Below are positions 22,118-50,219 of a stretch of 64,000 nt of DNA, piece after piece; positions within the stretch are counted from its first letter, which is position 1; every line of letters starts with the position of its first letter. Both the position numbers and the translations under genes were made by a program. The notes beneath the pieces are model-generated. The model worked only from the letters and a program-made list of their open reading frames with translations. It was not told the origin of the DNA and made no database searches. Location: the NCBI RefSeq assembly GCF_025639885.1, contig NZ_CP106737.1, forward strand, positions 124,001 through 188,000. The letters are read 5' to 3'. The DNA is from Roseovarius pelagicus (GTDB lineage Bacteria > Pseudomonadota > Alphaproteobacteria > Rhodobacterales > Rhodobacteraceae).

Positions 22118-22120
22118 CCG

Positions 22121-29396: not shown

Positions 29397-29696
29397 TTCG
29401 AACCCTCGTGTTTGGTGCCCATTCTTCCAGACCATAAACAACCACGATCCAAAACCCTAGGTCCATTCGACACTAACGGTACTGGTTTTACTGCGAAGCG
29501 ATGCAGGATCATCACGGTAGGAGTTCGTATATCCTCCGCAATCAACGGAGATGCTATCTGTCATGCCACAGACTTGCATGATCCATCCCTTTGAGCATGG
29601 GATCTGCCATGATGAAAACCCAATGCATATCTGCGGTGACTACTTTGCTCGCGCCATTAGCGCATTACCAAATACTTTGAGGTTGGCCCGTTTCCA
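29397..29696. other. Intergenic region, nothing recognised
   Basis: 300 bases between the yjbH start and the degraded APS-kinase remnant. It must hold the yjbH promoter. No gene or repeat is evident. Confidence 0.35.
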
Positions 29697-29881: not shown

Positions 29882-31462
29882 TCAATCAGTCTCCTCGGCA
29901 TCGAACTGCGCCGCAAGCGCGCGCCTGTCGATCTTCTGCGAAGTCGTGCGCGGAAAAGCGTCTATGATGTGCACAGCCTGTGGGATGGCATAGGGCGGTA
30001 GCCGGTCGGCGCAATGACGCAGCAGATCATCGGCCGCAACAGAACTGTGATTGTGTATCGTGACCGCTGCTTCGATCTCGGTTCCGTCGCGGGCGGTGTA
30101 GCTGCCGGCCTCTTCGACACTGTCATGTTCGGCGAGTACGGCTTCCACCTCATCCAGCTCGATCCGAAAGCCGCGGATCTTGATTTGCCGGTCCTTGCGC
30201 CCAAGAAATAGCATGCCATGTACGCTGTCCTCAGCCACGATATCACCGGTACGATAGAACACGTCCTCGATGTCATCGGTCACGTTGCGGCGATAGAAAC
30301 AAGCCGCGTTCAGCGCGGGCGCCCGCCAATAGCTTCGCATCCGGGTTGGGGAACGGATCAATAATTCACCTGGCGCACCGGGGACCACCTGATGATCGTT
30401 TTCGTCCACGATCAGCGCTTCGGCGATGCCCCAGGCGCGCCCGATGGGGATGGTCTCGGTGGCTTCGATCACAGGCTCATCCACATGATGATAGGTGCAC
30501 ATATTCACCTCGGCCGGGCCGTAGGAATTGCTGAAACGCGCGTGGGGCCATTGCGCCATCAACGCCCCAAGGTATTTCGGCGGAAACGGTTCTCCGCCAA
30601 AAATCACCCATCGCAGGGTGGTCAGGTCGCGCTTGTCCAGCACACCGCGGAGCAATAGCAGGGTCAACGCGTGGGGCGCGGAAAACCAGACCGTCATGCG
30701 CTCTGTCTCCATCAGCTCCGACAGGCTCGCCGGCAGTTTGGTGTAGGGTTCGGGTATGATAATTGTCGTTGCTCCGCAGAGCGGGGCACACAGATAGTCA
30801 AAGAGCGAGATATCGAAATGCAGAGGCGAGTGGTTGCCGAAGCGGTCGGACGCTGTGATGGCGTAGAGATCGGCGATGGCCCGCGCATAGCTTAGCCCGC
30901 TGGAATGGGTATGGGTGATCCCCTTTGGCCTTCCGGTCGAGCCGGACGTGTACATGATATAGGCGATATCTTCGGGGATGACCTTTGCGGGTGCGACAGG
31001 CGGCGCGTCCCGGATTGCGTCCCAGCTAATGCTCTGCACGCCTCCCTTGGGACTGTCGGACAGGCCAATGACACAGTCGAGCCCTGCCTTGCCGTCCAGC
31101 AGCGTCTGTATCTGGGTGCGTTTGTCGTTGCCGGTGATCAGATGGCGCACACCGCAATGCTGGAGCATGGTCGCGACTCTCTCGACCGGCGCGCCTGGAT
31201 CAATAGGTACATAGGCGGCGCCGGCCTTGAGGATACCGAAGATCGCAACCGGTGTTTCCAGCGCCTTGTTCATGTAGATGCCAACGCGATCCCCCCGCCG
31301 CACGCCGTGATTCATCAACACACCTGCAAGCCGGGAACTGAGGCTCGCCAGCGCCTGATATGTCAGGCTATTGCCCAGAAATCGGAATGCTTCCTGTTCT
31401 GGGTCTCGATCTGCCGATCGGTCAATCATCTCGTGCAGCAAGTTCACTCTCATTGCGTTCAT
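29882..31462 (-). CDS. Free-standing adenylation enzyme, L-prolyl-carrier-protein ligase type (PltF/RedM-like)
   Basis: 526 residues, a complete stand-alone A domain: YTSGSTGRPKGITHTH (A3), SNSYGPAEVNMCT (A5), FYRTGDI (A7), GRKDRQIKIRGFRIEL (A8) and SQKIDRRAL (A10). The HFDISLFDY and FGGEPFPPKYL segments and the AEVNMCT variant of A5 are those I associate with prolyl-AMP ligases of pyoluteorin, prodigiosin and related pathways. It would load proline on the carrier protein encoded at 33805-34059. Last gene of the leftward operon. The proline assignment rests on family resemblance plus the dehydrogenase and carrier partners; a related imino or amino acid remains possible. Confidence 0.8.
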   Translation of the reverse strand: MNAMRVNLLHEMIDRSADRDPEQEAFRFLGNSLTYQALASLSSRLAGVLMNHGVRRGDRVGIYMNKALETPVAIFGILKAGAAYVPIDPGAPVERVATMLQHCGVRHLITGNDKRTQIQTLLDGKAGLDCVIGLSDSPKGGVQSISWDAIRDAPPVAPAKVIPEDIAYIMYTSGSTGRPKGITHTHSSGLSYARAIADLYAITASDRFGNHSPLHFDISLFDYLCAPLCGATTIIIPEPYTKLPASLSELMETERMTVWFSAPHALTLLLLRGVLDKRDLTTLRWVIFGGEPFPPKYLGALMAQWPHARFSNSYGPAEVNMCTYHHVDEPVIEATETIPIGRAWGIAEALIVDENDHQVVPGAPGELLIRSPTRMRSYWRAPALNAACFYRRNVTDDIEDVFYRTGDIVAEDSVHGMLFLGRKDRQIKIRGFRIELDEVEAVLAEHDSVEEAGSYTARDGTEIEAAVTIHNHSSVAADDLLRHCADRLPPYAIPQAVHIIDAFPRTTSQKIDRRALAAQFDAEETD

Positions 31463-31508: not shown

Positions 31509-32621
31509 TCAACAGTACCAGATATGTGCGACCGTCAGCGCATTTGCGGCAAAGACTGGCACAGAAAGATCAGGGTGCAACCCCGGTGCCAGCGGCGATT
31601 GTTCATGGACCAGAATGCGGGCACCGGGGCGCAATTCCGTGCGCACTCGGTCAAGCAGGGGTTTCAACGCGGTCATGGGGTGAAACAGAAAGACGACGGT
31701 GGCCTCGGCGATGTCTGCTGCTGCGGCATCGCCGGTGATGATGCGGACGCGATCCGAAACGCCTGCGGCCTGCACCGCTGCGCGCGAAATTTCCGCAAGG
31801 CTCGAATCCTGCTCAACGCCGATCGCAGCGCAGTTTCGGCTCTGTGCGGCCTCGGTCACGATCCGGCCATCTCCACATCCGAAATCGAACAGCGTGTCAG
31901 CTTCGGTGACACCAGCAACTTTGAGCAGTGGCGCGACGAGGGGGAGTGGTGTCCCCAGGTTGATCCCGGGGTCATAGCGACCGCGCGCCGCCTGTCTGCC
32001 CCCACCGCGCATAATATCGCGGACCACCCGCACCGGTTTTATCGCAAAATAGGTGGGCCAGAGCCATGCGGGCGGAGATGCGGCGGCGAAATCCGCAAGC
32101 CCCGGCGACAGGCCGCGCCGGATACGGGCCATGGCGCGCGGCAGCACCCTGCCCCACCGGAGCGTCATCCGTGTCGTGACCGCATCGCGTTTCATCAGAG
32201 CGATTTCGCCATGCGTGTATCGCAGCGCCCGAAGTGCCGCAGGCCCGAATACGTTCGGAACGGCATACCCCTCTGCCGCCGCTGCCTGTAGCGCCGTTTC
32301 GATCCGGTCTGCAGGAATCCGCTGGGTGAACATCTGGAATTGCGCAGATCCGGCCTGTTCGGGCTGCGCCGAAACCTCCATTGCGGCAAGGTGTCTAATA
32401 ATCGCCTGCTGCGCCTGCTGGGTTTCCGAAGCGATCATTGCCAGGGTTGCGACGACTGTCAAAGCACTGGCCCGAGCATCGTCTACGATGGCGGCTGGCG
32501 GCAGGGCCAGCAGCATCTCTACTTCCTTTTCCAGCCGATGGTCATGGATTGCCTTGATCAGGTGATCCTGCACTTCGGCCTTTGACAGCGGCGCAAAAGG
32601 TCCCGCAGGCCGATCCGCCAT
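31509..32621 (-). CDS. SAM-dependent methyltransferase with unknown N-terminal domain
   Basis: 370 residues. The C-terminal ~160 residues are a class I methyltransferase: DFGCGDGRIV (motif I), AIGVEQDSS (acidic strand end), GDAAAADIAEATVVFLF (motif IV region). The N-terminal ~200 residues are helical with an Ala-rich stretch, a Trp/Pro patch (PPAWLWPTYF) and no family that I recognise. It starts three bases after the dehydrogenase stop in the pyrrole-cassette operon. It could N- or C-methylate the pyrrole, the peptide, or a carrier-bound intermediate. The target cannot be read from the sequence. Confidence 0.72.
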   Translation of the reverse strand: MADRPAGPFAPLSKAEVQDHLIKAIHDHRLEKEVEMLLALPPAAIVDDARASALTVVATLAMIASETQQAQQAIIRHLAAMEVSAQPEQAGSAQFQMFTQRIPADRIETALQAAAAEGYAVPNVFGPAALRALRYTHGEIALMKRDAVTTRMTLRWGRVLPRAMARIRRGLSPGLADFAAASPPAWLWPTYFAIKPVRVVRDIMRGGGRQAARGRYDPGINLGTPLPLVAPLLKVAGVTEADTLFDFGCGDGRIVTEAAQSRNCAAIGVEQDSSLAEISRAAVQAAGVSDRVRIITGDAAAADIAEATVVFLFHPMTALKPLLDRVRTELRPGARILVHEQSPLAPGLHPDLSVPVFAANALTVAHIWYC

Positions 32622-32624: not shown

Positions 32625-33779
32625 TCAGCCTAACAACCGGGCGATGATCTGGCGCTGGATGTCAGACGTTCCGGAATATATCAGCCCGCCGGTCGCATCT
32701 CGCAGATCGCGCTCGATACCGTCGGCGCTAAGATACCCCCGGCCGCCGAAAATCCGAACCGCATCAAGGCTCGACGCGGCAAAGGCTTCGGAAATGTGCA
32801 GCTTGGCCATTGCGGCTTCCAATGCTGAAGGACGACCCACGTCCTTCAGCCACGCGGCGCGATAAAGCAGCAGGCGCGACGTCTCGAGGCGCAGACGCAT
32901 CTCGGCCAGACGGTTCGACACCGACTGGTTGTCACCGATGGGTGCGCCAAAGGTTTCGCGGCTTCGGGAATACGACACGCATTCGTCCAACTGTCGTGCC
33001 ATCGCGCCCACGTGGCTGCTGAAGATAAAGCTGCGCTCCCACTCCATCGTGTGCTGAAAAATGCTCATGCCCGCACCGACCGGCCCCAGCCGCCGATCCT
33101 CGGGCACCCAGCAGTCAGTCAGGCGCAGCCCGCCTAGCGGCACCGACCGCAGGCCCATCTTCTCTTCGGGCTGGCCGCGCTCGAACCCTACGTCGCCCGC
33201 TTCGACCAGAAAGGCGGAAACACCCCATGCGCCGTGATCCGGCGCCGTGCTGGCAAAGACCAGCGCCAGATCGCAGTCCGGCCCCATGCCGATATACGCC
33301 TTGGTGCCGTTCAGGACATACCCGCCATCGCGGGCCTCGGCAGTGGTTTTCAGGCTCATGGCGTCAGAGCCTGTTTCAAGCTCGGTCAGCCCATGCGCAC
33401 CGACCAGACGCCCGTCGATGAGGCCGGGCACGTATTTCCGCTTTTGCGTGTCCGTTCCGAAACTGATGATCGGTTTCAGAACCGCCCAGATCTGACCATT
33501 GATCCCAAGGGTCAGGCCATTGTCGGCACAACCCCGGCCAATCGCCTCGAGCGCCATGATCGTGGTCAGGGTGCTGTGCCCTGCGCCACCATATTCCTGC
33601 GGGATGCAAAGACCGAATAGGCCATAGTCCGCGCATTTCTGCCACAAATCGCGCCAGCCGTCCTCTTGGCCCGCGCCGCGCCTGTCGCGCTCGGCCAGTC
33701 CGGTGTTCAGGGTGCTTTGCGCAAATTCCTGTGCCGATGCACATAGCGCGCGCTGTTCATCGGTTGGGTCGAAATCCAT
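32625..33779 (-). CDS. Acyl-CoA-dehydrogenase-family flavoprotein, prolyl-carrier-protein oxidase type (PltE/RedW-like)
   Basis: 384 residues from the ATG at 33779, chosen for the strong upstream GGGGAGAAGGA and because homology begins at MDFDPTDEQ. The acyl-CoA dehydrogenase landmarks are present: LTELETGSDAMSLKTTA (flavin site), FGAPIGDNQSVSNRLAEM, and the C-terminal DLRDATGGLIYSGTSDIQRQIIARLLG (quoted in two parts: DLRDATGG and YSGTSDIQRQ). Together with an adjacent carrier protein and a prolyl-ligase-like enzyme this predicts four-electron oxidation of prolyl-S-carrier to pyrrole-2-carboxyl-S-carrier. Lying 25 bases after the carrier gene, it is clearly cotranscribed. Confidence 0.82.
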   Translation of the reverse strand: MDFDPTDEQRALCASAQEFAQSTLNTGLAERDRRGAGQEDGWRDLWQKCADYGLFGLCIPQEYGGAGHSTLTTIMALEAIGRGCADNGLTLGINGQIWAVLKPIISFGTDTQKRKYVPGLIDGRLVGAHGLTELETGSDAMSLKTTAEARDGGYVLNGTKAYIGMGPDCDLALVFASTAPDHGAWGVSAFLVEAGDVGFERGQPEEKMGLRSVPLGGLRLTDCWVPEDRRLGPVGAGMSIFQHTMEWERSFIFSSHVGAMARQLDECVSYSRSRETFGAPIGDNQSVSNRLAEMRLRLETSRLLLYRAAWLKDVGRPSALEAAMAKLHISEAFAASSLDAVRIFGGRGYLSADGIERDLRDATGGLIYSGTSDIQRQIIARLLG

Positions 33780-33804
33780 TCCTTCTCCCCTACCCACCAT
33801 CAGC

Positions 33805-34059
33805 TCAGACCCTTTCGCGGGCGAGATATGCCGCCATCGCATCAACGCTCGCCAAGTTGGTCACAGTGATGTCTTCGGGTGGGATGGTGATCCCGAACTC
33901 CATTTCCAGAAATGCCACCAGGCGCATCACCGACAGCGAATCCAGCAACCCGCTGAGTAGCAGTTCGTCCCCGTCTTGAAATTCATGCCCGGCGAGTGGT
34001 GACCCGGCGAGATACGCACGGATGTCTGCGCGCACAGACGCGTCCTCGGTTTCGGTCAT
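33805..34059 (-). CDS. Stand-alone peptidyl/acyl carrier protein (PltL-like)
   Basis: 84 residues from the ATG at 34059, preceded by AAAGGGG with good spacing; an open frame extends further upstream but has no carrier features. The phosphopantetheine serine is in LLSGLLDSLSVMRLV, followed by the typical FLEMEFGITIPPEDIT helix III region. It would carry prolyl and then pyrrolyl groups and present them to the first condensation domain of the NRPS encoded on the opposite strand. It lies between the HupE-like gene and the dehydrogenase. Confidence 0.85.
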   Translation of the reverse strand: MTETEDASVRADIRAYLAGSPLAGHEFQDGDELLLSGLLDSLSVMRLVAFLEMEFGITIPPEDITVTNLASVDAMAAYLARERV

Positions 34060-34084
34060 ATGGCATCCCCTTTTTGGACAGTGC

Positions 34085-35260
34085 TCAAGGCAGCAGGCTG
34101 GACACAGACATGTTAACTCCGAATGCTCGCTCGACAAACCAGTAGAGCGCGATCAGGATCAACAACGATGAGCCGCCGTAAAGTACAACCGGCACGTAAA
34201 GCCGCGACTTTCGCAGCATGTAGAGCAGCGGGACACATAGCACGACGAACAGGATCTGTCCCAATTCCACCCCGACGTTGAAGGCGAACAGCGTGACGAC
34301 GATATTGGTCGGCTCGACGCCGTAGGGGGCCAGAACGTTGGCAAAGCCCATCCCGTGCAGCAGCCCAAACCCAAAGATCACGATCCATATCTGGCGACGC
34401 GGTGCCGCGATCAGGTTTGCAGCGGCGGCGATGGCGATGGACGCTGCGATCAGCGATTCGATCAAGCGTTCGGGCAACCTCAGGATTTCAAGTGCGGCAA
34501 GGCTGAGGGTGATAGAATGTGCGATGGTGAACAACGTCACGACCGCAACGACATTCATCAATGCCGGACGCAACCCCTCCACTGCATCCCAGTGTCGATC
34601 ACGATAGACCAGAACCGCAGGGAAGAGCAGAGCGAGCAGAAAAAACAGGTGGTCGTAACCGATCAGGATGTGTTTGGCACCGTAGATGACAAAGCTCTTG
34701 AACATATCAAGTGCGGATGCAGCCGTCAGATCTACGCTTCTGCGTTCGGTTTCGGATGCAAAGACCAACAGGTGCCGTGCTTCGTTCCCCTCAAGACCCG
34801 AGCGCGCGTTGCTCTCGATAATCAGCAGCACCGGTTGTTCCGGCCCGCCGCCCGCATAATACGGCCGGTGCTCGATTTCGATGGCGTCAGGCATGGCCTG
34901 AGAGACCGCGGTGGTGAAATTCAGCGTGGCGAAGATACCGAAACCCACGGGAACAAAGTCGTGCCCGGTGATTTCGACGGGGTAGCTCTGATCGCCTATG
35001 AAGAATGTCAGGTTCGGCTGCATCCGCGCATAGATGTCTGCACTATGCGCCTCGAATTCCTGCACGGAAACCGTGCCATCCCCATTGTCGTCAAGCGCCA
35101 TGGCGTTCCCCAGATCGTCGAGCAGAATCTCGAACCGACCGGAAAGCGATGCCTCGCCCACATTCAGGTAGACATAACTTTCGCCTTTCCTGTGGGCCGT
35201 TGCCAGTGTCGGGGCAATCACAATAGCCAAGACGAATAAAATCAGCGGCCTCAGGCGCAT
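34085..35260 (-). CDS. HupE/UreJ-family membrane protein with EF-hand-like N-terminus
   Basis: 391 residues from the ATG at 35260, with AAAAGGA upstream and an immediate signal peptide (LILFVLAIVIAPTLATA). The exported N-terminal ~180 residues contain DDNGDGTVSVQEFE, an EF-hand-type calcium loop. The C-terminal half has about six helices with the HupE/UreJ-2 motif IGYDHLFFLLALLF, FTIAHSITLSLA and LLHGMGFA. HupE/UreJ proteins are linked to nickel uptake, but this variant class is widespread and of unknown function. It is first in the leftward operon, 25 bases before the carrier gene, so it may be tied to the metabolite, for instance in metal handling. Confidence 0.75.
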   Translation of the reverse strand: MRLRPLILFVLAIVIAPTLATAHRKGESYVYLNVGEASLSGRFEILLDDLGNAMALDDNGDGTVSVQEFEAHSADIYARMQPNLTFFIGDQSYPVEITGHDFVPVGFGIFATLNFTTAVSQAMPDAIEIEHRPYYAGGGPEQPVLLIIESNARSGLEGNEARHLLVFASETERRSVDLTAASALDMFKSFVIYGAKHILIGYDHLFFLLALLFPAVLVYRDRHWDAVEGLRPALMNVVAVVTLFTIAHSITLSLAALEILRLPERLIESLIAASIAIAAAANLIAAPRRQIWIVIFGFGLLHGMGFANVLAPYGVEPTNIVVTLFAFNVGVELGQILFVVLCVPLLYMLRKSRLYVPVVLYGGSSLLILIALYWFVERAFGVNMSVSSLLP

Positions 35261-35477
35261 AGAAAAATCCTTTTCAAATACCTCTAAACAGCATCGGGAT
35301 GCATCCGAGGACCTGACGATCAGTTTAATCAATCACTCCCTCCAATCAAGCTTCGATTTCCGAAGGCAATCGCGACATCACCGGCGTTTTTGCCTGCGCG
35401 AAACGATTTGCTTCAGTGACGCGCAGCTGGAATTCGAGCCTTCTCGCAAGCTTGGATGTCGTCTAACATCGTGATTC
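35261..35477. other. Divergent promoter region of the NRPS island
   Basis: 217 bases between the leftward HupE/carrier/dehydrogenase operon and the rightward NRPS gene. It is the only space for both promoters, implying joint control. I cannot place -35/-10 boxes reliably. The NRPS start is uncertain: ATG at 35478, 35484 or 35523 are all in frame. Confidence 0.4.
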
Positions 35478-38400
35478 ATGCATATGGGGAACACTTCGTT
35501 GGATGGCTCTGAGAAGACGGACATGACGGCAACGGGACCGTCGAACCAGTGCGAGTTGCAGCTATCTGCGATGCAGCGAGTTCTCTGGGCGTCTCAGACA
35601 CGGCATCCGGACGCGCCTGTCCAGAACATGGCTGTGCTTGCGCATCTGAATGGCGCCATCGACAGCAACCGGTTCGTACGGGCCTTCGGTACGGTTGTGC
35701 AGGCGTCCGATGCCTTGCGCTCGCGAATGATGTCCGACGGACGCGCAGCGGCCGTGGTTCTGGCTGATCCGCCACGTCCCGCCGAGGTAATGACGCTGGC
35801 ACGGGACGAGGTTGCGGAATGGGCGCGGCGGCGCTCTGCGCGACCGCTCGACATGGGCGTCTGTGGTTATGACAGCGTCCTGCTGCAGCACGAGGACGAG
35901 ACCGCATCGTGGTATCTCAACATCCATCACACACTGACCGACGCGGCCAGTTCCGCGCTGGTGTTCGAAGCGACCGCCGCTGCCTACGGCGATGGCAGCC
36001 TGCTCGGGCCGAATTCTTACTATGATTGGGCGGCCGCACTGCCGCGCGCGCCTGATCCGATGGCGGCACGCGCGCTGCAACATTGGAAGGAGCGTATTGC
36101 GCCACCGCGCCCCGGTGCTTTTTACCCGGCCTCCGACCTGCCGACCCCCTATGCGTCGCAGGTCGCCGTTCCGTTGTCTGACGGACTGCGCAATCTGGTC
36201 GAGACGCACGAGCAGGGCGCATACGCCATACCTGTCGGCAACCTGTCGCATACGGTACTGTTGACAACCGCGTTGGCCCTGTTGATCCACCGGGTTAGCG
36301 GCGAATGCGCGTTTTCCATTGGCCTGCCCGTCAGTCATCGGACGAACGCGACCTCGCGCCGCTGTATCGGTGCCCTGGTCGAGGTGTTCCCGGTGGATAT
36401 CGAGATTGCGGCAGGCGACACGCATGCCGCGATTCACCGGCGGGTCGCAGGGGCCGTTCTCGACACTCTGAAATTCGCGATCCGCGGAACCAGCCCGGCA
36501 CCAGACTATGCGGCACTGGTCAACGTCCTGCCGCCCGAAACCGCCCCAAACCGGTTCGGGGACATCCCCGCCCGCGTGCAGTGGTTGCATTGTGGCGCGA
36601 TGGACGCGGGACAGGCGCTGCGATTGCATTCGGTGCGATATGCCGATGCGCAGGGGCGCACGCCCGAGCGTTTCGACCTTGTGCTGGACATCGGGCACGG
36701 CGCGGCGGGCGACGACTATCGCGGCCGGGTCGTGGAGCATCTGCAAGTGATCTTGCATGCGATGCTGGAGGACCCTGAAAGCCCCATAGGTGCGGCGTCG
36801 ATCTGCAGCGCGGCGGATGACGCGCGGATTGCCGAATGGGAAAGCGCCCCGGATATCGATGGCGCGGCGGTGCTGTTGCCCGACCGGCTAAAGGCTGCGC
36901 TGGCCGACAACCCTGCGGTCGTGATCGAGCAGGACGGCATCGCGCTGACCGGGGACGAGTTGTGGCAATGGGCGCGGGGGGTGGCCGCCTCGATCGGCCA
37001 GGCATCCGGGCCGGGCACACGTATTGGCGTCGCGCTGGGTCCGTCGGTTCAGGCGGTGGTCGCGATCTACGGCATTTTGCTGGCCGGGGCGTCCTTTGTG
37101 CCCATCGACCCGTCCCAACCCGAGGCGCGGCGCAAAACGCTGGCCAAACGGGCGGGTCTTGCCCAAGTGTTCACCTCTGCCGATCAGGTCGACGATCTGC
37201 GCGGCCATTCCACCGCCCCGCTACCGGCTCTCAAGGACGATAACGAAGCCTACCTGCTCTTTACCTCCGGTTCTGCCGGGGAACCGAAGGGCGTGCCGAT
37301 TACCCATCTGGGGTTGGCGCGCTACATCCGCTTTGCGCTCGCCTCCTTTTTCGACGCGCCGGAACCACCTATCGCGGCACTGTTCGGCTCGCTGACTTTC
37401 GATCTGACATTAACGACGGTTTTTCCCCCGATCCTTGCCGGGGGGCGGCTGGTTGTCTGCTCTGGCAGCGGCGCCGAAGCGATGGCGAGGATCGCCGCCA
37501 CGCCCGTGATCACATGGTGCAAGGCAACGCCGTCGCACCTGAAGCTCCTGACCCGGCTGATGCCGTCCGGGCACGCACTGCAAACGCTGGTGGTGGGCGG
37601 CGAAGCGTTCGGCATGCGCATTGCCGAGGATTTACGCGCCGCCAATCCCGATATTGAGATATTCAATGAATATGGCCCAACCGAGGCCGTGGTCGGCTGC
37701 ATGATCTACCGCCTCGGCATGGAGTTGAGCGGCACCGATGTGCTGATCGGCAAACCGGCCCCCGGCACAACTCTGCGGGTTGTCGACGGCTATGATCAGC
37801 GCGTGCCTGTGGGAGTTGCGGGCGAATTGCTGATTTCCCATCCTGGCGTGATGGCCGGTTATCTGGGCGATACGGGTGACGATCCGTTCGTGGGACTGGA
37901 CGGTAAACGCTACTACCGGTCGGGCGATATCGTGCGGCTTCGAAATGATGGCGAACTGGAATATCTCGGGCGCTTTGACACTCAGATCAAGGTTGGCGGC
38001 ATCCGAATCGACCTGACCGAAATCGAACATGCGCTGAGGTGTCATCCGTCGGTCTCGAGTGTCGCAGCGGGCTGCTGGGCACCATCGCTGAAACCGATAC
38101 GCGTGCATTGCGCGCGCTGCGGGTTGCCGGACGATGTGCCAGGCGTTGCGTTCGATGAGGGCCGGATCTGCCAGACCTGCCGCGAATACGACCGCGTCGC
38201 ACCGGTGGCACGTAGCTGGTTCAGGACCGAGGATGATCTGGCCGCCAGGCAGCCGGTAGCCCGAGCGCACGCAACAGGCAAATATGACTGCATGCACCTG
38301 CTGAGTGGCGGCAAAGATTCCACCTATGCCCTCTATCGCCTGATCGATCTGGGGTTCACACCCTATGCCCTGACCCTCGACAACGGCTATATCTCGGAAC

Positions 38401-41400
38401 AGGCCAAAGACAATATCCGCCGCATCGTGGATGAGTTGGGCATTGACCATGAGTTTGCGACCACCCCGGCGATGAACGCCATTTTCCGCGATTCTCTGGC
38501 GACGCATTCCAACGTCTGCAACGGTTGTTTCAAGACCATCTATACGCTGGCCACGAACCGCGCGCTGAAACTGGGCATCCCGCTGATTGTCACCGGTCTG
38601 TCGCGCGGACAGCTGTTTGAGACGCGGCTGATCCCGCAACAGTTCGCGCTCGACCGGTTCGACCCGGATGCCATCGACCAGGCCGTGCTGAGGGCGCGGC
38701 GCAGCTATCACCGGATCGATGATGTCGCCAACCGGTTGCTGGATACCCGCGCCTTTCGGGAGGATGCGATGTTCGAGCAGATCGAGTATCTGGATTTCTA
38801 CCGTTACATTGATGTCGATCTCACGACGATGCTGGACTATCTGACGAAGCGCACCCCCTGGCTGCGGCCCGAGGATACCGGTCGATCAACCAACTGCCTG
38901 ATCAACGCCGCCGGTATCCACACCCACAAGATCGAGCAGGGCTATCACAATTACGCGGTTCCCTATGCCTGGGATGTGCGTCTGGGGCACAAGACCCGCG
39001 ACGAGGCGATGGCGGAGCTGGACGACAATCTGGATGCGGATGATGTGGCGCGAATGCTGTCAGAGATCGGCTATGATCCCGCGCCACGTCAGACTCTGAC
39101 CGCATGGATCAAACTGACCGAAGGTGTGACGCAGGCGCCCTCGGCGGCCGAATTTCGCGCCTTTCTGGCGCAAACCCTGCCAGCACATGCGATGCCATCC
39201 GCGTTCGTGGCGGTTCCGGAGTTTTCACTGACCCGCAATGGCAAGCTTGACATGGCGGCACTGCCGGGGCCGGAACGGGTCCATCGCCATACGCTGGAGC
39301 CGGTCGCCGCGCCATCGAATACCACCGAGGAAACGATCATCGCCGCGTGGGAGAAGCAGTTGCGGATCGAGCCCATCGGGGTCGATGACAGTTTCTTTGC
39401 GCTTGGCGGCGATTCACTGGCCGCGCTGGAGATGATCGTGCGGCTGAGCGCCGAATTTGGCGCGCGCATCCGCGAGGATCTGGCCTTTACCCACACCACG
39501 CCGCGGGCGCTCGCCGAAGAGATCGACCGGCTGCTGGCATCCGGGGGGGCGGTCCGGCCTACTGCGCAACTGCCGGACATCACTCAGCTGCCCGCGGATG
39601 AAGCCCCGCCGCTATCGGTGGGCGAGCAAACACTGCTCTTTGACCAACGGGCGCGCCCTGAGGCACTGATGTACAATGTCGCGCGGGTTTTTCACGTGGC
39701 AGGCGCAGTCGATGCCCCCCGGTTCGAGACCGCGTTGCGGACCGTCGTCCCGCAGCATCAACCGCTGTCATGGAGCTATGGAACGCCGCGCCGCAAGCTC
39801 GAACCAAACGACGCCATCAAAGTCGTGATCTCTCGCGAGCCGGTCACACCCGAGGCCGTCCCGGCCGCCATTTCAGATTTCCAGACCGCTCCGTTTGACC
39901 TGTCGCAGGGCCCGCTGTTGCGGTGTCTGGTTCAACCCGTACGGGACGGGTCGACCATCATCACATTTGCAATCCACCATGTGAGCGGCGATCACGAAAG
40001 CTTTGATCGCCTCTGGGCACAGCTGATCGACGCATTGGCGGGTCATCCTCTGCCCGAGTTGAAAACCGATTATGCATCCTTTTGTCACTGGCAGGCTGAA
40101 ACAGAGCAGGCGGCGCATCGTGCTTTCTGGCTCAAGTGCGGATCGCAAGAGCCACCATCCGCCCTGCTCTGCGCGCCTGCCGTAACGCACGCGCCCGACG
40201 GATTTCTGACCTGCCGCAGCGCATTGTCACCGAACGAGGTGCGGGCGGCAAAAGAGACACCTGTTTCGCTGGCTCTGGCGGCGACCGCTGCAGCGCTGCG
40301 CCTGTACACGACAGGCAATGATCTGGAGATCGGCATTGTCGCTTCTACCCGTGATCACCCTGATGCACAGCCGCTATTCGGATATCTTCTCAATCCGCTG
40401 CCACTCAGGCTCGATTGCGCACAGGACAGCAAATTCTCTGAGCTTGCACAACAAGCGGGGAATGCTGTCGGGCGTGCGTTGCCGCACCGATCCTATCCTA
40501 TCACGCAAATCTTGCAGGACCGCCGGGCCGCAGGGCTGGCGGCAGAGCCGCTGCGCGTGCTGGTCGCCTACGACGATGCGATCCCGACCGAACTGGACGG
40601 CAGGATCGTCACGCAAAGGGTCGCGTTCAATGGCTTTGCAGTGACGGACCTTTCAGTTTTTGTCGAGTTGCGCAGGGACACTGTCGATATTGGTATCGAA
40701 TATTCCGGCAAGACAATCGGCCAAGAAGTGGCCAATACGATTCTCAAACGCGCAGAAGATGCCCTGTGCCGTGCCGTGCGGTCGCCGGACGACACTGTAA
40801 GCCGCGTCGGAGATGCGGCGGCAAACCGGAGCCTGCTGGTGGGGCCGGACCTGAAAGATACCCGGCTAATTCTGGATCGGATATCCGAGAACGTCCGGCA
40901 GTACCCGGATGCGACCGCAGTGACCTGCGCCGGGCAGAGCATTAACTGGGCGCAACTGGGCCAGTGGTCGGAGGCAATCGCAACGCGGCTGCGGGCATCG
41001 GGCATAGGTTCCGGGGACCGGGTGATTGTCTGCAAGGACAGGTCCGCGCATCTGATCGCCGCGATGCTGGGCGTGCTTCGGGCGGGTGGGGTCTATGTCC
41101 CGGTTGATCCCACCTATCCGCCCGAACGTGTCCGCATGATTGTCTCAGGCGCCAAAGCACGCCTCGCCATCGTCGACGACCCGGCGGCGGCAGAAGGGAC
41201 CATGGACATTCCCTGCCTTGGCGTCACCGAAAATGGCCTTGATGGTGGTGGATGGAATGGCCCGACGACCCGTTTTCCCGCCCCAAAGGCCGACGATCCG
41301 GCCTACCTGATCTTTACCTCTGGATCGACGGGCGCTCCGCGCGGAGTCAGCATCACCCACCGGCAGCTTTCGGACAGCACCAATGCGCGCGACATTTTCT

Positions 41401-43571
41401 ATGATGCCCCACCAACCCGGTTCGCGATGCTGTCGAGCATTGCGTTCGACAGCAGTGTCGCGGGGCTTTTCTGGACGCTTGCAACAGGTGGTACCCTCGT
41501 ATTTCCAACCGAGCGGGAAGCGCGGGATGTGGACGCGCTCGCGCACCTGTTGAGTGGCGCAACCCACACGCTCTGCGTCCCGACGCTTTATAACGCGATG
41601 CTGGACCGGCGCGACCCGGCAGAGGCGTGGCCAACACATATCATCGTCGCAGGAGAGGCCTGCCCCGGTTCCACACTGACGCGCCATTTCGACGAAGTGC
41701 CCGGATCGGCCCTGATCAACGAATACGGCCCGACAGAGACCACCGTCTGGGCGACGGCGTATCAATGCAAGCCGACTGACAATTTGGTGTCATCCGGGCA
41801 ACCGATCGCAGGGACGTGGGTGGCCGTAGTCGATGCCGATGGCAAAATTCTGCCCAGCGGCATGCCGGGCGACTTGATCATCGGCGGCGCAGGCGTGGCG
41901 GATGGGTATGCGGACAACCCCGCTGCGACGGCAGAGCGATTTGGCACCCGCGCGGATCAACCGGCCTTTGCCGAGTTGCCCGGACCACGCTATTTCCGAA
42001 CCGGAGATCGCGCCGTCATCTCGGGTCGTCAGCTCAATTATCTTGGCAGGGCTGACGACCAGATCAACGTCGGCGGTGCGCGGGTCGAGCCCGGAGATAT
42101 CGAAAACACGCTGCTGCGGACACGGATGATCTCGGCAGCGGTTGTCACCGCTGCGGATGTTCGGCCATTGCCGGAATTGCTTGGCTCGCTGCCTGCTGAA
42201 ACGGTCGCCGCGGCGATGCGCGAGGCGGGTGCAAGCAATGACCCGACGGCCGCATTGACGCAGTTCCTGCAACGTGAAGGGCAGCCCGATCTGCGGCTGG
42301 TCGCGCATGTCGAACACAGCGGAGCGCTCGATACAAATGCGCTGTGCGCGGCGGCTGCCCGGGATTTACCACCACACATGCGCCCGGCGCTCTATGTCGT
42401 TCACGACAGCCTGCCGCGCACCCCCAACGGCAAGCTGGACCGCGCCGCCGCCGCCGACCTGCCGATCATCGAACAGGCACCGGCCGATCCACCGCCGCGC
42501 CCTGCGGCGGCACCAAATGACGCGATCGTTGCAAAGCTGACCGGACTATTCCAGCACGAGGTGCGCAACCCGTCCTTCGGCCCGCAGGATTCTCTTTTCG
42601 ATCATGGTGGCAACTCGCTGACGGCAATCCGTCTGCTATTGGCCATCGAAGAGACGTTCGGGGTCCGGCTCTCGACCACGGTGCTTTATGAGGCGCCAAG
42701 CCCTGTCGCGCTTGCGGCCCATCTGGCGACCGGCGATGGCGATACTGACGCAGCCCCGATTTTTATCGTGCCGTGCGATGTTGGCTATTCGGCACCTCCG
42801 CCCGCGTTTCATCTGGCGCTGACCGCACATCGGCCGGCAGAGTATCTGGAACATCCCTGCATGCGCCCTGGCACCCCGCCGATCTGGACTCTGGCCGAGC
42901 TTGCGCAAATCTACGTTGGCCAGATCGAGAAGCGATGGCCGACCGGGCCGATCCTGCTGGGCGCGTTCTGTATCGGGGCTTATGTGGCCACCGAAATCGC
43001 GCGCCAGTTCGCGGCAAAGGGTCGCCCGATTGCGCATCTGGCCCTGCTCGATCCGAACATTCCGCGTCTTCAGGTCATGCGCATGCACATGGAAGCGGGC
43101 CTGCCATACAACGGTGGGGCCAAGACGCTCGCCGGCCGTGCGATTGACCTCTGTGACCGGGTAATCAATGCGCGGCTGCTGCTGGGCGATGGGTATCTGC
43201 AGGGCGACCGGCGGCGGTCCAAGGCGCTGCGGGCCTATGGGATTTACGTATCAATGCGCTATCTGCGACGCTTCAACGGCGCGCCGGAACATCTGAGCCT
43301 TGATTACTGGGCGCGTAGCCTGATGATCTCTGCCGGGGCCTATGACGACCTGACACCCTACACTGGCCGCGTCGATATCATCGCCTCCGAAGAACACAGA
43401 GCAACGTTGGAAGGAAACCCCGAATTCTTGCAGGCGATCCTGCCGGATCACACAATCCATTACGCTGAGGACACGCATTGGGACATCGGCATGACGGCGA
43501 AAACCGCCAAATGCGTGAGCGATTGCTTTAAATCCGCATTGGACGGCATCACCCAAGAGTCGGCAGGCTGA
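35478..43571 (+). CDS. Two-module nonribosomal peptide synthetase with PP-loop-interrupted A domain and Cys-thioesterase
   Basis: 2697 residues. Domain order by motif: C1 (25-455, HHTLTDA at 150-156), A1 (466-866; A3 LLFTSGSAGEPKG, A5 NEYGPTEA, A8 GRFDTQIKVGGIRI), inserted zinc-ribbon/PP-loop domain (868-1203), A1 remainder with A9/A10 (LPAHAMP; NGKLDMA, 1254-1260), T1 (LGGDSL, Ser1313), C2 (375 residues, HHVSGDH at 1500-1506), A2 (1790-2325), T2 (HGGNSL, Ser2380) and TE (2425-2690, nucleophile in GAFCIG). The A1 code residues read D-L-T-K-V-G-E-V-G-K, one change from the known Asn code. A2 reads D-S-A-C-I-A-E-V-W-K, which I cannot assign. No epimerase or methyltransferase domain is present. 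C1 at the N-terminus implies an acyl donor, presumably the pyrrolyl carrier protein from the facing operon. Confidence 0.93.
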   Translation: MHMGNTSLDGSEKTDMTATGPSNQCELQLSAMQRVLWASQTRHPDAPVQNMAVLAHLNGAIDSNRFVRAFGTVVQASDALRSRMMSDGRAAAVVLADPPRPAEVMTLARDEVAEWARRRSARPLDMGVCGYDSVLLQHEDETASWYLNIHHTLTDAASSALVFEATAAAYGDGSLLGPNSYYDWAAALPRAPDPMAARALQHWKERIAPPRPGAFYPASDLPTPYASQVAVPLSDGLRNLVETHEQGAYAIPVGNLSHTVLLTTALALLIHRVSGECAFSIGLPVSHRTNATSRRCIGALVEVFPVDIEIAAGDTHAAIHRRVAGAVLDTLKFAIRGTSPAPDYAALVNVLPPETAPNRFGDIPARVQWLHCGAMDAGQALRLHSVRYADAQGRTPERFDLVLDIGHGAAGDDYRGRVVEHLQVILHAMLEDPESPIGAASICSAADDARIAEWESAPDIDGAAVLLPDRLKAALADNPAVVIEQDGIALTGDELWQWARGVAASIGQASGPGTRIGVALGPSVQAVVAIYGILLAGASFVPIDPSQPEARRKTLAKRAGLAQVFTSADQVDDLRGHSTAPLPALKDDNEAYLLFTSGSAGEPKGVPITHLGLARYIRFALASFFDAPEPPIAALFGSLTFDLTLTTVFPPILAGGRLVVCSGSGAEAMARIAATPVITWCKATPSHLKLLTRLMPSGHALQTLVVGGEAFGMRIAEDLRAANPDIEIFNEYGPTEAVVGCMIYRLGMELSGTDVLIGKPAPGTTLRVVDGYDQRVPVGVAGELLISHPGVMAGYLGDTGDDPFVGLDGKRYYRSGDIVRLRNDGELEYLGRFDTQIKVGGIRIDLTEIEHALRCHPSVSSVAAGCWAPSLKPIRVHCARCGLPDDVPGVAFDEGRICQTCREYDRVAPVARSWFRTEDDLAARQPVARAHATGKYDCMHLLSGGKDSTYALYRLIDLGFTPYALTLDNGYISEQAKDNIRRIVDELGIDHEFATTPAMNAIFRDSLATHSNVCNGCFKTIYTLATNRALKLGIPLIVTGLSRGQLFETRLIPQQFALDRFDPDAIDQAVLRARRSYHRIDDVANRLLDTRAFREDAMFEQIEYLDFYRYIDVDLTTMLDYLTKRTPWLRPEDTGRSTNCLINAAGIHTHKIEQGYHNYAVPYAWDVRLGHKTRDEAMAELDDNLDADDVARMLSEIGYDPAPRQTLTAWIKLTEGVTQAPSAAEFRAFLAQTLPAHAMPSAFVAVPEFSLTRNGKLDMAALPGPERVHRHTLEPVAAPSNTTEETIIAAWEKQLRIEPIGVDDSFFALGGDSLAALEMIVRLSAEFGARIREDLAFTHTTPRALAEEIDRLLASGGAVRPTAQLPDITQLPADEAPPLSVGEQTLLFDQRARPEALMYNVARVFHVAGAVDAPRFETALRTVVPQHQPLSWSYGTPRRKLEPNDAIKVVISREPVTPEAVPAAISDFQTAPFDLSQGPLLRCLVQPVRDGSTIITFAIHHVSGDHESFDRLWAQLIDALAGHPLPELKTDYASFCHWQAETEQAAHRAFWLKCGSQEPPSALLCAPAVTHAPDGFLTCRSALSPNEVRAAKETPVSLALAATAAALRLYTTGNDLEIGIVASTRDHPDAQPLFGYLLNPLPLRLDCAQDSKFSELAQQAGNAVGRALPHRSYPITQILQDRRAAGLAAEPLRVLVAYDDAIPTELDGRIVTQRVAFNGFAVTDLSVFVELRRDTVDIGIEYSGKTIGQEVANTILKRAEDALCRAVRSPDDTVSRVGDAAANRSLLVGPDLKDTRLILDRISENVRQYPDATAVTCAGQSINWAQLGQWSEAIATRLRASGIGSGDRVIVCKDRSAHLIAAMLGVLRAGGVYVPVDPTYPPERVRMIVSGAKARLAIVDDPAAAEGTMDIPCLGVTENGLDGGGWNGPTTRFPAPKADDPAYLIFTSGSTGAPRGVSITHRQLSDSTNARDIFYDAPPTRFAMLSSIAFDSSVAGLFWTLATGGTLVFPTEREARDVDALAHLLSGATHTLCVPTLYNAMLDRRDPAEAWPTHIIVAGEACPGSTLTRHFDEVPGSALINEYGPTETTVWATAYQCKPTDNLVSSGQPIAGTWVAVVDADGKILPSGMPGDLIIGGAGVADGYADNPAATAERFGTRADQPAFAELPGPRYFRTGDRAVISGRQLNYLGRADDQINVGGARVEPGDIENTLLRTRMISAAVVTAADVRPLPELLGSLPAETVAAAMREAGASNDPTAALTQFLQREGQPDLRLVAHVEHSGALDTNALCAAAARDLPPHMRPALYVVHDSLPRTPNGKLDRAAAADLPIIEQAPADPPPRPAAAPNDAIVAKLTGLFQHEVRNPSFGPQDSLFDHGGNSLTAIRLLLAIEETFGVRLSTTVLYEAPSPVALAAHLATGDGDTDAAPIFIVPCDVGYSAPPPAFHLALTAHRPAEYLEHPCMRPGTPPIWTLAELAQIYVGQIEKRWPTGPILLGAFCIGAYVATEIARQFAAKGRPIAHLALLDPNIPRLQVMRMHMEAGLPYNGGAKTLAGRAIDLCDRVINARLLLGDGYLQGDRRRSKALRAYGIYVSMRYLRRFNGAPEHLSLDYWARSLMISAGAYDDLTPYTGRVDIIASEEHRATLEGNPEFLQAILPDHTIHYAEDTHWDIGMTAKTAKCVSDCFKSALDGITQESAG
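38079..39086 (+). other. Embedded zinc-ribbon + PP-loop ATPase domain inside NRPS A1
   Basis: Residues ~868-1203 of the NRPS. A four-Cys ribbon (C878, C881, C898, C901; CARCGLPDD and GRICQTC) leads to KYDCMHLLSGGKDSTY with PP-loop SGGKDS at 943-948. Then comes CNGC (C1014/C1017) and a lone C1140, and near the end DVRLGHKTRDEAM, which aligns with EVRSGDIAREEAV of the WbpG-like protein at 20022-21344. Ribbon, PP-loop and tail thus match the sugar-amidotransferase family, but the extra CxxC after the PP-loop recalls iron-sulfur tRNA-thiolation enzymes such as TtcA/TtuA. PP-loop enzymes adenylate a carbonyl oxygen for attack by ammonia or sulfur, so an amidine, thioamide or nitrile on the bound amino acid is possible. 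Confidence 0.85.
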
Positions 43572-43579: not shown

Positions 43580-45082
43580 ATGCACAATGAAGCGCCAGCG
43601 CGCAGCGCATCGGGCGCGGCCGTGCGTGCCTTGACGATCATCGGTAGTGCGTCAGCGTTGCGCATTCTGATCGGCATTTTACGGCTCAAGATCATCGCGG
43701 CACTGCTGGGGCCGACCGGTGTCGGGCTCTTTGGGCTTTTCACCAATCTTCAGGGCTCGATCGCGTCGGTTGCGGGCCTTGGACTGAATTTCGGCGGCGT
43801 GCGCCAATTGGCGCTGGCAAAAGATGACCCTGCCCGGCTGACAAGCGCCCGCCAAGCACTGTTCATCGGCAATCTGCTGCTTGGCCTGATCGCCGTTCCG
43901 GTGATATTTTTCGCGCGGGAATGGCTGGCGGAATTGACATTTCAAGACTCCGGGCGGGCGTGGGAGTGCGGGCTGATCGGCATCGGGGCCATGCTGACGA
44001 TGATGGCCGGCTCACAGGCTGCGGTGCTTCAGGCGCTCGGCTTCATCAAGCCGCTCGCATGGCTCAGCGTAATCGAGATCACGCTGGCGACCGTCATTGG
44101 CACCGTGATCTTGTTGGAATGGCGCATTGGAGGGGTCATTGCGCTGGTTCTGCTGACGCCTGCGCTCAATTTCCTGATTGGGCTGGTTCTGGTAGCGCGC
44201 AACGCCGGGACCGACATGGTGCCGCGTTGGCGCGCTCTGCCCCAGCAATGGCGCGAAGCCGTGTCTGTTTCGGTCGCGCACATGGCCGGGACAAGCGTCG
44301 CGTTGCTAACGCTGACCTTTGTTCTGGCAGTTACGGGATACTATCGGGGTACCGCCGATGTGGGTCGGTTGCAGGCGGTGCTGTCGATTTCGGGGTTATC
44401 AACCAGCTTTCTCATCGCCGCGATGCAGACCGATTATTACCCCCGGTTGATGAATTGCGCCTCCAACGTTGCCGAAACGAACGCGCTGGTAAACGCGCAG
44501 GCTCGGCTGGGGTTGCTGGTCAGTGGCCCGTTGCTGATCGGGTTGGCCGGAACGGCAGAATGGATTCTTCCGCTGCTTTTTTCCGCCGAGTTCACACCGG
44601 CAGCACCTCTCATGGGCTGGTGGCTTCTGTCTGACGTGCTGCTGGTTCCTGCGTGGGTCGTCGGTTTCTTGATGGTCGCCCATCAAGACAGCAAAGCCTA
44701 TTTCACGACCCAGTTTCTGGCGAACCTGGCTTTTGCAGCGGCGGTATCCGGGCTTCTCGGGCTAGGCTACGGGCTGACTTCACTGGCGCTCGGCAAAATC
44801 GCAATGACGGCAATCCTGCTTGTGCTGGCGACCGTCATTGCCAGACGACACTACGGATTTCGATGGTCGGGCAAGGTGGCCACACTGGCGGCGCTGATGC
44901 TTGCGATCATCGCCGGGCTGCGCATTCTTGCCATGCTCTGGCCCGGTGCAGCCATCGTGCCGGGCGTATTGGCAGCGATCCTGTGCGGCCTCTACAGCCT
45001 TCGCTGTATAGCGCGCATGGCCGATGGTGGTATTGCTGCGCGGCTCGGGTTTTTAGGCACGCGCCGCAAGGTGCACAAATAA
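43580..45082 (+). CDS. Wzx/PST-type polysaccharide flippase-like transporter
   Basis: 500 residues, about 12-14 hydrophobic helices, with the polysaccharide-transporter N-terminus (GSASALRILIGILRLKIIAALLGPTG in part: LRLKIIAALLGPTGVGLFG). Members of this family (O-antigen flippases, MOP superfamily) flip lipid-linked oligosaccharides; relatives export drugs or peptides. It starts nine bases after the NRPS stop, so it is cotranscribed with it and could export the peptide or a lipid-linked intermediate. Alternatively it belongs to the adjacent nonulosonate genes on the other strand. Confidence 0.8.
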   Translation: MHNEAPARSASGAAVRALTIIGSASALRILIGILRLKIIAALLGPTGVGLFGLFTNLQGSIASVAGLGLNFGGVRQLALAKDDPARLTSARQALFIGNLLLGLIAVPVIFFAREWLAELTFQDSGRAWECGLIGIGAMLTMMAGSQAAVLQALGFIKPLAWLSVIEITLATVIGTVILLEWRIGGVIALVLLTPALNFLIGLVLVARNAGTDMVPRWRALPQQWREAVSVSVAHMAGTSVALLTLTFVLAVTGYYRGTADVGRLQAVLSISGLSTSFLIAAMQTDYYPRLMNCASNVAETNALVNAQARLGLLVSGPLLIGLAGTAEWILPLLFSAEFTPAAPLMGWWLLSDVLLVPAWVVGFLMVAHQDSKAYFTTQFLANLAFAAAVSGLLGLGYGLTSLALGKIAMTAILLVLATVIARRHYGFRWSGKVATLAALMLAIIAGLRILAMLWPGAAIVPGVLAAILCGLYSLRCIARMADGGIAARLGFLGTRRKVHK

Positions 45083-48414: not shown

Positions 48415-49356
48415 TTATCGTCGTGCGGTTTGGAGTATGCTTTCCGCAACCCTGAGCAATTCACCGCCGTCCGCGGTTGCTCCGAGTTCTGTGATCGCTT
48501 GCCTTGCCGCTGCGAGATACTCGGGCTTAGGTGAAGAGGTGATGCATGTGGGGTGCTTCTTTGATCGGGTTTTGTGATTTTCTCCAATCCGAACACTGCG
48601 AAGTGGCAAATCACCGACAAGGCTGGCCAACCGATCCACCAGTTTCCGTTTATGTGGGAAGGTAGCACGAAGCCTGCGTTCAGCGCGGGGATCGTTCTTC
48701 ATCACCAGCGCGACCGCGAGCAAAGGCCGGGTCATTCCTAAATTGATCGCAGCTAGAATGCTGTGGCGATCCAAACGGCTCTGAGAAAATTTCGCACCGT
48801 GACGAAGTTTCGGCGCGAGTACACCTGCGACTTGCAACGTCAGGTCCATCCGTCGGCCCGAATGGACGTTCCCTTGTCGGTAGGCAATCATGAGGTACCT
48901 CGCCCCTTCTTGAGCGCGGCGGCGGAGCCCGCTGGGCGGTTGCGCAAGCCCCTCGGAATCACCTCGCAAAGGTACCAACTCAGACCCGCAGACTTCGCAT
49001 TGCAATGACCACGAGAAGCGCCAATGGCGCAACGATATCCCGGGCTGTTTGCTTGTGCATGTCCGGCATTTTTGAAAATCTGACCATGAAACACACTCAA
49101 CCGCGAATTCCTTGCGCCGCTTGAGCAACATGCTGTCGAGATCATTGGACGGCAGACGTAATGTGGTGCAGAATCTGTCGACGTCCACGCTAGCCAGATC
49201 GGCCAGCATTTCCGGCGGGTGTTCTTGTGCAAGCCCCAGATACCGGCAGAGCTCCGGCACAGCGCAATAGTTAGCGTCAGCAAGTCGGGCGAGCCAACTC
49301 GACAGAAGTTCATCCTGAAATGGTGCAGGGCGCCTCGGCAATGGTTTGCAGTTCAC
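48415..49356 (-). CDS. tniQ: TniQ-family transposition protein
   Basis: 313 residues. The N-terminus has the TniQ pattern DELLSSWLARLADANY, and Cys pairs CRTC (in FQKCRTCTSKQ) and CEVCGSEL form the family zinc finger. TniQ assists target selection or accessory steps in Tn5053/Tn402 and Tn7-like systems. It overlaps the tniB stop by four bases. It lies next to the left end repeats. Confidence 0.85.
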   Translation of the reverse strand: MNCKPLPRRPAPFQDELLSSWLARLADANYCAVPELCRYLGLAQEHPPEMLADLASVDVDRFCTTLRLPSNDLDSMLLKRRKEFAVECVSWSDFQKCRTCTSKQPGISLRHWRFSWSLQCEVCGSELVPLRGDSEGLAQPPSGLRRRAQEGARYLMIAYRQGNVHSGRRMDLTLQVAGVLAPKLRHGAKFSQSRLDRHSILAAINLGMTRPLLAVALVMKNDPRAERRLRATFPHKRKLVDRLASLVGDLPLRSVRIGENHKTRSKKHPTCITSSPKPEYLAAARQAITELGATADGGELLRVAESILQTARR

Positions 49357-50219
49357 TCGAAAGCCGGTTGCGGCCGGTTCCGCAGGGTCCAGCTGTGCTT
49401 GGCCCAGACTGGCTGCCAGGATTGGACGGCCTCATCCGTGATCCGTTCCTCGCCAGTTTCGACAGCGTCGACGGCGAGCGCCTTGATCATTGTGAACACG
49501 CGCGAGGTGACACCGCCGGTCACACCCAAAATGCTACGCAACGATTGGACACTGAGACCAGATCCACGTTCCAACTGCATGGCCGCGATCAGGGTCTGGA
49601 CGAGGCGGGAGAACTCCACATCGTCATCCCAGAGCGGCAGGAAATGTTCATCCAATCTGCGGGCTAATTGTTCATCGCCACGAATGGCTTCGGCAGCTTC
49701 GTTGACACCAAACACAACGAGTGACGCGCACAAATCGTTAGACAGGAAGCGCAGCATGTTCAGGAAGCGCCTCTGCTCACGATAGCTCCCTGCCAGAAGA
49801 TTGTGGACCTCGTCGATCATGATCATCTTCAGATCCATGCCACGCAGATGGCTGAGAGCCCGCACTTCCAGTTCTGAGATCGTATGTCGGCCCCACATTG
49901 GTGCGCCGATTGATGCAAGAATGTGCTGATAAAACCGCCGTTCATCCGGTGCAGGTGGCGCTTGCAAGAGAAGGATCGGCGGGCGCGTGATGCCGATCTC
50001 AGAAGCGTACTGCGTCGGATAGAGGCTCTCCATCCTTTTGGCGATCATGGTCTTTCCGATACCGGAACTGCCATAGACCATGAGGCCTGGCATTCGTGAC
50101 TGCCGAGGCATCTCCATCAAGGATATCAATCTGTTGAGAACAATGGTTGCGCGGTCGAGGGCGATCCAGCGGTCGCTGCGAATGAGATCAAGTCTTTCGT
50201 CGTGGTCCATCAAAATCAT
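49353..50219 (-). CDS. tniB: TniB AAA+ ATPase (transposition regulator)
   Basis: 288 residues (or 285 from the fourth codon, also ATG). Walker A YGSSGIGKTMIAKR and Walker B MIMIDEVHNLLAG, with RRFLNMLRFLSN following, are typical of TniB/TnsC-type proteins. It would activate TniA at the target. Its start overlaps the 3' end of tniA by 32 bases. Confidence 0.87.
   Translation of the reverse strand: MILMDHDERLDLIRSDRWIALDRATIVLNRLISLMEMPRQSRMPGLMVYGSSGIGKTMIAKRMESLYPTQYASEIGITRPPILLLQAPPAPDERRFYQHILASIGAPMWGRHTISELEVRALSHLRGMDLKMIMIDEVHNLLAGSYREQRRFLNMLRFLSNDLCASLVVFGVNEAAEAIRGDEQLARRLDEHFLPLWDDDVEFSRLVQTLIAAMQLERGSGLSVQSLRSILGVTGGVTSRVFTMIKALAVDAVETGEERITDEAVQSWQPVWAKHSWTLRNRPQPAFE

Follow-up and report, generated by a model that had tools for sequence, protein, structure and literature searches.

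The closest described relatives of the domain analysed here belong to two enzymes that handle asparagine during nonribosomal peptide synthesis. In CysH of the cystobactamid pathway, a 38-kDa insert with an SGGKD motif lies inside an Asn-specific adenylation (A) domain and was named AMDH, for aminomutase/amide dehydratase (PMC7966384). It is reported to convert carrier-bound Asn into beta-cyanoalanine or isoasparagine, with a balance that depends on the hydroxylase CysJ; for dehydration there are both in vitro and gene-deletion data, for isomerisation deletion data alone, and the paper naming the domain terms its mechanism unknown (PMC7966384). The same source describes many BLAST homologues of the CysH domain, each interrupting an A domain with the Asn code and none tied to a known product, and gives 69% identity between CysH and AlbIV of the albicidin pathway. 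AlbIV, an A domain, contains an inserted segment of 342 aa with SGGKD, assigned probably to the alpha-hydrolase (ANH) superfamily and suggestive of Asn conversion in situ (PMC12283262), and the nitrile beta-cyanoalanine is proposed for albicidin (PMC12283262, PMC8949500). Among the literature matches listed, the term "AMDH domain" appeared only in PMC7966384 and its correction. Here we describe an insert of this kind in a nonribosomal peptide synthetase (NRPS) of Roseovarius pelagicus, encoded in a stretch of 64,000 nucleotides (GCF_025639885.1, NZ_CP106737.1 positions 124,001–188,000), which we call the window and whose positions are used as coordinates throughout. The kind of domain is thus already known, and the new parts are a proposed iron-sulphur centre and a candidate metallophore cluster.

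The NRPS (2697 aa, 35478..43571, + strand, as are all its parts) has the order C1-A1[AMDH-type insert]-T1-C2-A2-T2-TE according to its open reading frame (ORF), translation and Pfam matches for the condensation (C), A, carrier (T) and thioesterase (TE) domains. The translation and domain searches show that A1 is split between motifs A8 and A9 by a PP-loop domain of about 340 residues (868–1203; 38079..39086), with the larger part of A1 upstream (36849..38072) and the C-terminal subdomain, A9–A10, downstream (39087..39293). A preliminary description of this DNA had placed the domain, its ribbon cysteines C878, C881, C898 and C901 and the PP-loop SGGKDS (residues 943–948; 38304..38321, from translation and alignment) exactly; its statement that no PP-loop insertion had been described is contradicted by the AlbIV alpha-ANH insertion with SGGKD (PMC12283262, PMC8949500) and by the AMDH domain of CysH (PMC7966384). 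The specificity residues of A1, DLTKVGEVG(K), are of the Asn type, and DLTK[IV]GEVG is found in A1 of 74 of the 77 aligned rows, the other three differing at one position. DLTKIGEVGK is listed as the code for Asn and beta-cyanoalanine (PMC12283262). The remaining domains are C1 and C2 (35547–36467 and 39633–40808, from NRPS domain matches), T1 (39333..39521; PF00550, residues 1286–1348), A2 (40887..41909, a Pfam match), whose code DSALIAEVW corresponds to DSALIAEVWK, listed under His (PMC12283262), and the matched stretch of the thioesterase (42867..43067; PF00975, residues 2464–2530).

The insert is an intact, conserved domain and not a chimera. It lies within an open NRPS-type frame at all 80 genome loci collected, and at E <= 1e-3 it has 718 matches among proteins as long as an NRPS, with identities of 62–100% for the 120 listed. 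The assembly chimera that the preliminary description had named as a possible refutation was considered and ruled out by these open frames, the conservation of the insert and the many NRPS-length matches. The search of PP-loop families that it had proposed returned the N-acetyl sugar amidotransferase family WbuX (TIGR03573; 106.6 bits, E 1.7e-30, and 106.3 bits in a scan of genomes of the class), although every curated TIGR cut-off was missed: WbuX at 203.2, QueC at 150.3 (TIGR00364, 22.4 bits) and LarE at 150 (TIGR00268, 16.5 bits). The QueC profile PF06508, with a gathering score of 22, gave 25.5 for the insert piece and 21.8 for the whole protein, covering 75 of 210 profile positions. In the class scan, the WbuX proteins above cut-off scored 235–366 bits and three matches in long frames scored 88–108 bits; of these three, the window and genome G036 are NRPS inserts and the third is presumed to be one.

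We take the insert to be an AMDH domain because the Asn code is nearly uniform and the CysH and AlbIV accounts place such domains in Asn-code A domains. Like the CysH/AlbIV-type domains, it has about 340 aa, carries the SGGKD ATP motif and is situated in an Asn-code A domain, here at A8–A9. We therefore regard it as probable that it acts on Asn loaded by A1, with dehydration or isoasparagine as the outcome, in an NRPS path of the order starter-Asn-His. The arrangement differs from CysH, a stand-alone A-AMDH-T protein accompanied by the hydroxylase CysJ and the methylase CysQ, in that the window NRPS is C-A-AMDH-T-C-A-T-TE and is accompanied by a set of ligase, acyl carrier protein, dehydrogenase and HupE/UreJ genes. 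AlbIV activates Asn with the code DLTKIGEVGK and differs in being a stand-alone A-T protein acting in trans. Several points weigh against our reading. The likeness to CysH and AlbIV comes from published descriptions and not from direct sequence identity, and the A-domain specificity positions are those that we presume to be the right ones. PMC8949500 puts the AlbIV insertion at the C-terminal end of the A domain, between it and T, and the available text of PMC12283262, PMC8949500 and PMC7966384 does not give an A8–A9 insertion point for CysH or AlbIV. At the level of sequence, nitrile and isoasparagine formation are indistinguishable, and a cysJ deletion strain is reported to yield Asn and isoasparagine linkers besides substantial nitrile product (PMC7966384).

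Some homologues approach the CysH/AlbIV arrangement more closely: one genome locus in Bradyrhizobium (L081) and the protein matches P0246–P0268, with Mesorhizobium and Microvirga among the named carriers, are mostly stand-alone A-AMDH-T proteins of about 990 aa.

Seven cysteines are invariant in the 76 aligned inserts, the four of the ribbon (38109..38180, a probable Zn site) and C1014, C1017 (38517..38528) and C1140 (38895..38897). Among protein matches selected for having both SGGKDS-type and G[LI][ST]RGQ motifs (n=348), the motifs C.GC[FY] and R[ST][ST]NC are both present in 343; of the five exceptions, P0107 and P0234 retain the third Cys within an altered motif, P0364 keeps it in the alignment, and P0220 and P0227 stop less than 200 residues past the PP-loop. 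Counted from SGGKDS, the CxxC pair occupies +71/+74 in 75 of 76 rows and +72/+75 in one, compared with +69–71/+72–74 from the PP-loop motif in LarE. A profile search of the PDB gave as its top match the [4Fe-4S] LarE structure 8cnz (E 1.1e-9), with CxxC aligned on CxxC, followed by the sugar amidotransferase 8wex (2.2e-7), and hhalign kept the CxxC register with probabilities of 98.0 for LarE and 94.9 for TtcA. These two families were chosen for comparison because the NcsA/TtuA family TIGR00269 was found in 0 of 58 genomes of the class. LarE, TtcA, TtuA and NcsA share with the insert SGGxDS, a CxxC about 70–75 residues later and a distant third Cys, and PP-loop enzymes with a three-Cys [4Fe-4S] cluster are described in PMC10067955. 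We infer from this pattern, as a reasoned proposal, that the insert holds a Zn ribbon and a three-Cys [4Fe-4S] cluster with C1014, C1017 and C1140 as ligands; the seven conserved cysteines hint at an iron-sulphur centre that has so far been overlooked.

CysH is reported to be dark brown, and its authors looked for a CxxCxxxC motif without finding one and considered a metal cofactor (PMC7966384), whereas the rows aligned here have an invariant CxxC...C triad. An iron-sulphur centre at this triad could account for the brown CysH, the colour being the sole hint of a bound cluster; the available text of the cited accounts does not state a three-Cys cluster for AMDH domains. Other observations speak against the proposal. 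The third Cys is conserved, yet it is found at +195 to +204 from SGGKDS, farther off than the +149 to +151 of LarE, and every profile alignment to LarE or TtcA ends short of it. Three of 28 WbuX rows have Cys at all three triad positions, so the chemistry cannot be read from the triad by itself. As further differences, the LarE score is far under its cut-off, and the known enzymes of the LarE, TtcA, TtuA and NcsA kind have a nucleotide cofactor or tRNA as substrate (PMC10067955, PMC9283937). The WbuX subset with FCWHCHTGI and the third Cys (L101, L109 and L094) thus shows the CxxC...C pattern in free-standing amidotransferases.

In the proposed mechanism, A1 would load L-Asn onto T1, as its code indicates, and the AMDH domain would use ATP at the PP-loop to activate the oxygen of the Asn side-chain amide. 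Loss of water would then give beta-cyanoalanine on the carrier, the second outcome of the family being aminomutation to isoasparagine. PMC10067955 mentions dehydratases whose [4Fe-4S] cluster is non-redox and has a free iron. Once ATP has adenylated the amide, an open iron of the predicted cluster could likewise serve as the Lewis acid in the water loss or aminomutation, much as in dehydratases of the aconitase type. The data of this study concern sequence, predicted fold, conservation and gene neighbourhood, and the Asn reactions were shown by others for CysH. The preliminary description had proposed on-line chemistry on the carrier-bound amino acid giving an amidine, a thioamide or a nitrile; on-line chemistry is probably correct, and of its three products the nitrile survives. 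Comparison with CysH makes nitrile or isoasparagine the likely Asn chemistry, rather than amidine or thioamide.

Between the two outcomes we mildly favour dehydration, because CysH dehydrates mainly without CysJ (PMC7966384) and no Fe/2-oxoglutarate hydroxylase was seen among the annotated recurrent neighbour families, one three-locus family and the singletons lying outside this annotation, which counts against the argument. That the domain mainly makes L-isoasparagine, so that the chain would be extended from a different carboxyl group, is a less likely but serious alternative: CysH yields isoasparagine linkers in vivo and also, to a lesser extent, without CysJ, although CysJ hydroxylation favours the aminomutase path (PMC7966384). 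A luciferase-like monooxygenase recurs at three loci.

Considerably more doubtful is sulphur insertion as in TtcA, TtuA and LarE. Here a three-Cys [4Fe-4S] cluster would pass sulphide from its open iron to an amide adenylated at the PP-loop, and the product would be a thioamide, either thio-Asn or one in the backbone. Although there is no direct support for a thioamide, the CxxC...C pattern, with its CxxC aligned to LarE and TtcA, keeps this route as a rival. A thioamide would suit copper or nickel binding, and a pyridoxal phosphate (PLP) enzyme of Cys/Met metabolism occurs at three loci; no partner gene would be required, since such enzymes are described as able to obtain their sulphur from IscS or another cysteine desulphurase. 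The characterised relative CysH is reported to give nitrile or isoasparagine and not thioamide (PMC7966384), and the LarE score of the insert is about a ninth of the cut-off. Least probable of all is amidine formation as in WbuX/PseA-type amidotransferases, with ammonia attacking the activated amide. The sugar amidotransferases (TIGR03573; PDB 8wex) share with the insert the fold, the N-terminal Cys ribbon and the PP-loop, but the insert falls below their cut-off and 25 of 28 WbuX rows are without the full CxxC...C set. A HisH/HisF-type ammonia partner is expected beside WbuX. With the window's own HisH (GATase ORF 22762–23409) and HisF as queries, a single-sequence phmmer search at E 0.01 of 777 ORFs from 82 sources (the 80 genome loci, L002 and the window), many on short contigs, matched no such protein near the NRPS, whereas the window's own WbuX has both. 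The nitrile synthetase ArtA (PDB 9lei) is a separate chain of 435 residues, and its match to the insert is limited to the PP-loop region.

The true WbuX of the window (359 bits) lies in a polysaccharide region (19980–23409) with HisF-like and class-I glutaminase genes, a standard sugar-amidination set, and a hexapeptide acyltransferase (22121–22744) sits among these genes.

Returning to the AMDH reading, the neighbouring genes suggest what the Asn-derived residue may be built into. Neighbour families were defined by coarse clustering and labelled from one representative each; NRPS fragments at the ends of contigs may have entered the ligase count, and short contigs depress all counts. Divergent from the NRPS are a HupE/UreJ family membrane protein (34085..35332, - strand; PF13795, 153 bits; 44/80 loci), a free-standing carrier protein (33805..34137, -; PF00550; 29/80), an acyl-CoA-dehydrogenase-fold enzyme nearest to prolyl-carrier dehydrogenases (32625..33845, -; 41/80), an S-adenosylmethionine methyltransferase (31509..32621, -; PF13649; 5/80) and a stand-alone amino-acid adenylating ligase (29882..31462, -; TIGR01733, 342.9 bits; a ligase-sized member in 48/80). 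Downstream, a MOP-superfamily flippase/exporter (43580..45082, +; PF01943) starts 8 bases past the NRPS stop and has the same position elsewhere only in L007. Ornithine-cyclodeaminase-like proteins occur at 16 and TonB receptors at 13 of the 80 loci. When only the 39 loci that span 19 kb or more are counted, the ligase-sized and HupE/UreJ families each reach 29, the prolyl-dehydrogenase-like enzyme 25, the carrier 17, the ornithine-cyclodeaminase-like protein 12 and the TonB receptor 9. Ten rarer families (3–4 loci each) include the luciferase-like monooxygenase, the Cys/Met PLP enzyme, a sulphotransferase and polysaccharide genes, and one matched nothing.

The best PDB match of the dehydrogenase-fold enzyme is the prolyl-ACP (acyl carrier protein) dehydrogenase 4irn (345.5 bits; 5zw0, 276.9), although its NCBIfam prolyl-PCP (peptidyl carrier protein) dehydrogenase score of 358.4 is under the cut-off of 650. 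The ligase gives 271.7 bits with the prolyl-carrier ligase 6o6e and is outscored there by LgrA, so a Pro starter is likely but not settled. C1 would first join this starter acid, probably Pro-derived and supplied by the ligase/carrier/dehydrogenase set, module 2 would add His and the thioesterase would release the product. Starter-Asn-His is the Xaa-Xaa-His layout of amino-terminal copper- and nickel-binding (ATCUN) metal sites. The gene cluster may thus make a metal-binding tripeptide, a putative [Pro-derived]-[Asn-derived]-His metallophore of ATCUN-like layout, perhaps binding nickel or copper and moved by the HupE/UreJ and TonB proteins. HupE/UreJ is described as a nickel transporter family (PMC4771312); the proteins so labelled here are PF13795, and the substrate is not carried over from the name. 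A His-type A domain (E, V and W at 322/330/331) is present in 43 of the 82 sources, 42 of which also have an Asn-type A domain. The near-uniform Asn code and the frequent His-type second module, recurring across phyla, suggest a basic function such as metal capture and not a strain-specific antibiotic. We put forward only tentatively, as somewhat less likely than the reverse, that AMDH domains are a functionally distinct and new class of PP-loop enzymes with a [4Fe-4S] cluster, and that one of their frequent homes is a gene cluster for this nickel or copper metallophore. Counting against the metallophore, no metal-regulator box was found in the upstream regions: a palindrome scan of 95 of them gave motifs common to at most two (shuffles 1–2), and the Nur, two Zur, NikR and Fur patterns occurred 4, 3, 2, 1 and 2 times, at scattered loci, against 0.8, 1.75, 1.85, 0.7 and 2.1 expected.

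In five Bacteroidota loci (L057, L067, L078, L083 and L085), a protein of 146–165 aa is encoded between the NRPS and a TonB receptor gene; it is clearly His-rich in L057, L078 and L085, and the L057 copy matched no family.

Judging from record titles, the cluster recurs in Alphaproteobacteria, Acidimicrobiia, Acidobacteriota, Bacteroidota, cyanobacteria, Verrucomicrobia, Gemmatimonadota, Chloroflexota and others. In sampled Pseudomonadota the AMDH-type domain is rare: at E 1e-30 it was found in one of 398 genomes, the window's own. It was found in 0 of 35 genomes of the same genus. Distances between A domains and between inserts are correlated (r 0.80, 61 rows; maximum of 999 permutations 0.16), and the two therefore probably travelled together. 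The main homologue searches were made with the insert itself as query, so uninterrupted A domains, named as a refutation in the preliminary description, were weakly tested; when C1 alone was searched against 60 genomes, relatives turned up in two, the window's own genome and G036 (31% identical), each with the insert in the same frame. On a plasmid of Streptomyces sp. NBC_01216 (L153:12062–16112), an AMDH domain with all seven cysteines, 42.6% identical, is joined to a C domain and does not interrupt an A domain; it follows asnB and a separate A-T protein. The AMDH enzyme therefore need not sit inside an A domain.

The same cluster, with an insert 92% identical, is present on a plasmid of Pseudohalocynthiibacter aestuariivivens typed as conjugative (L154; NZ_CP049039.1). 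A YjbH-type exopolysaccharide protein gene lies beside the ligase gene in the window (27252–29441) and in the same place on this plasmid, and TniQ, Mu-type transposase and IS66 transposase genes are located downstream of the cluster in the window (48415–53944).

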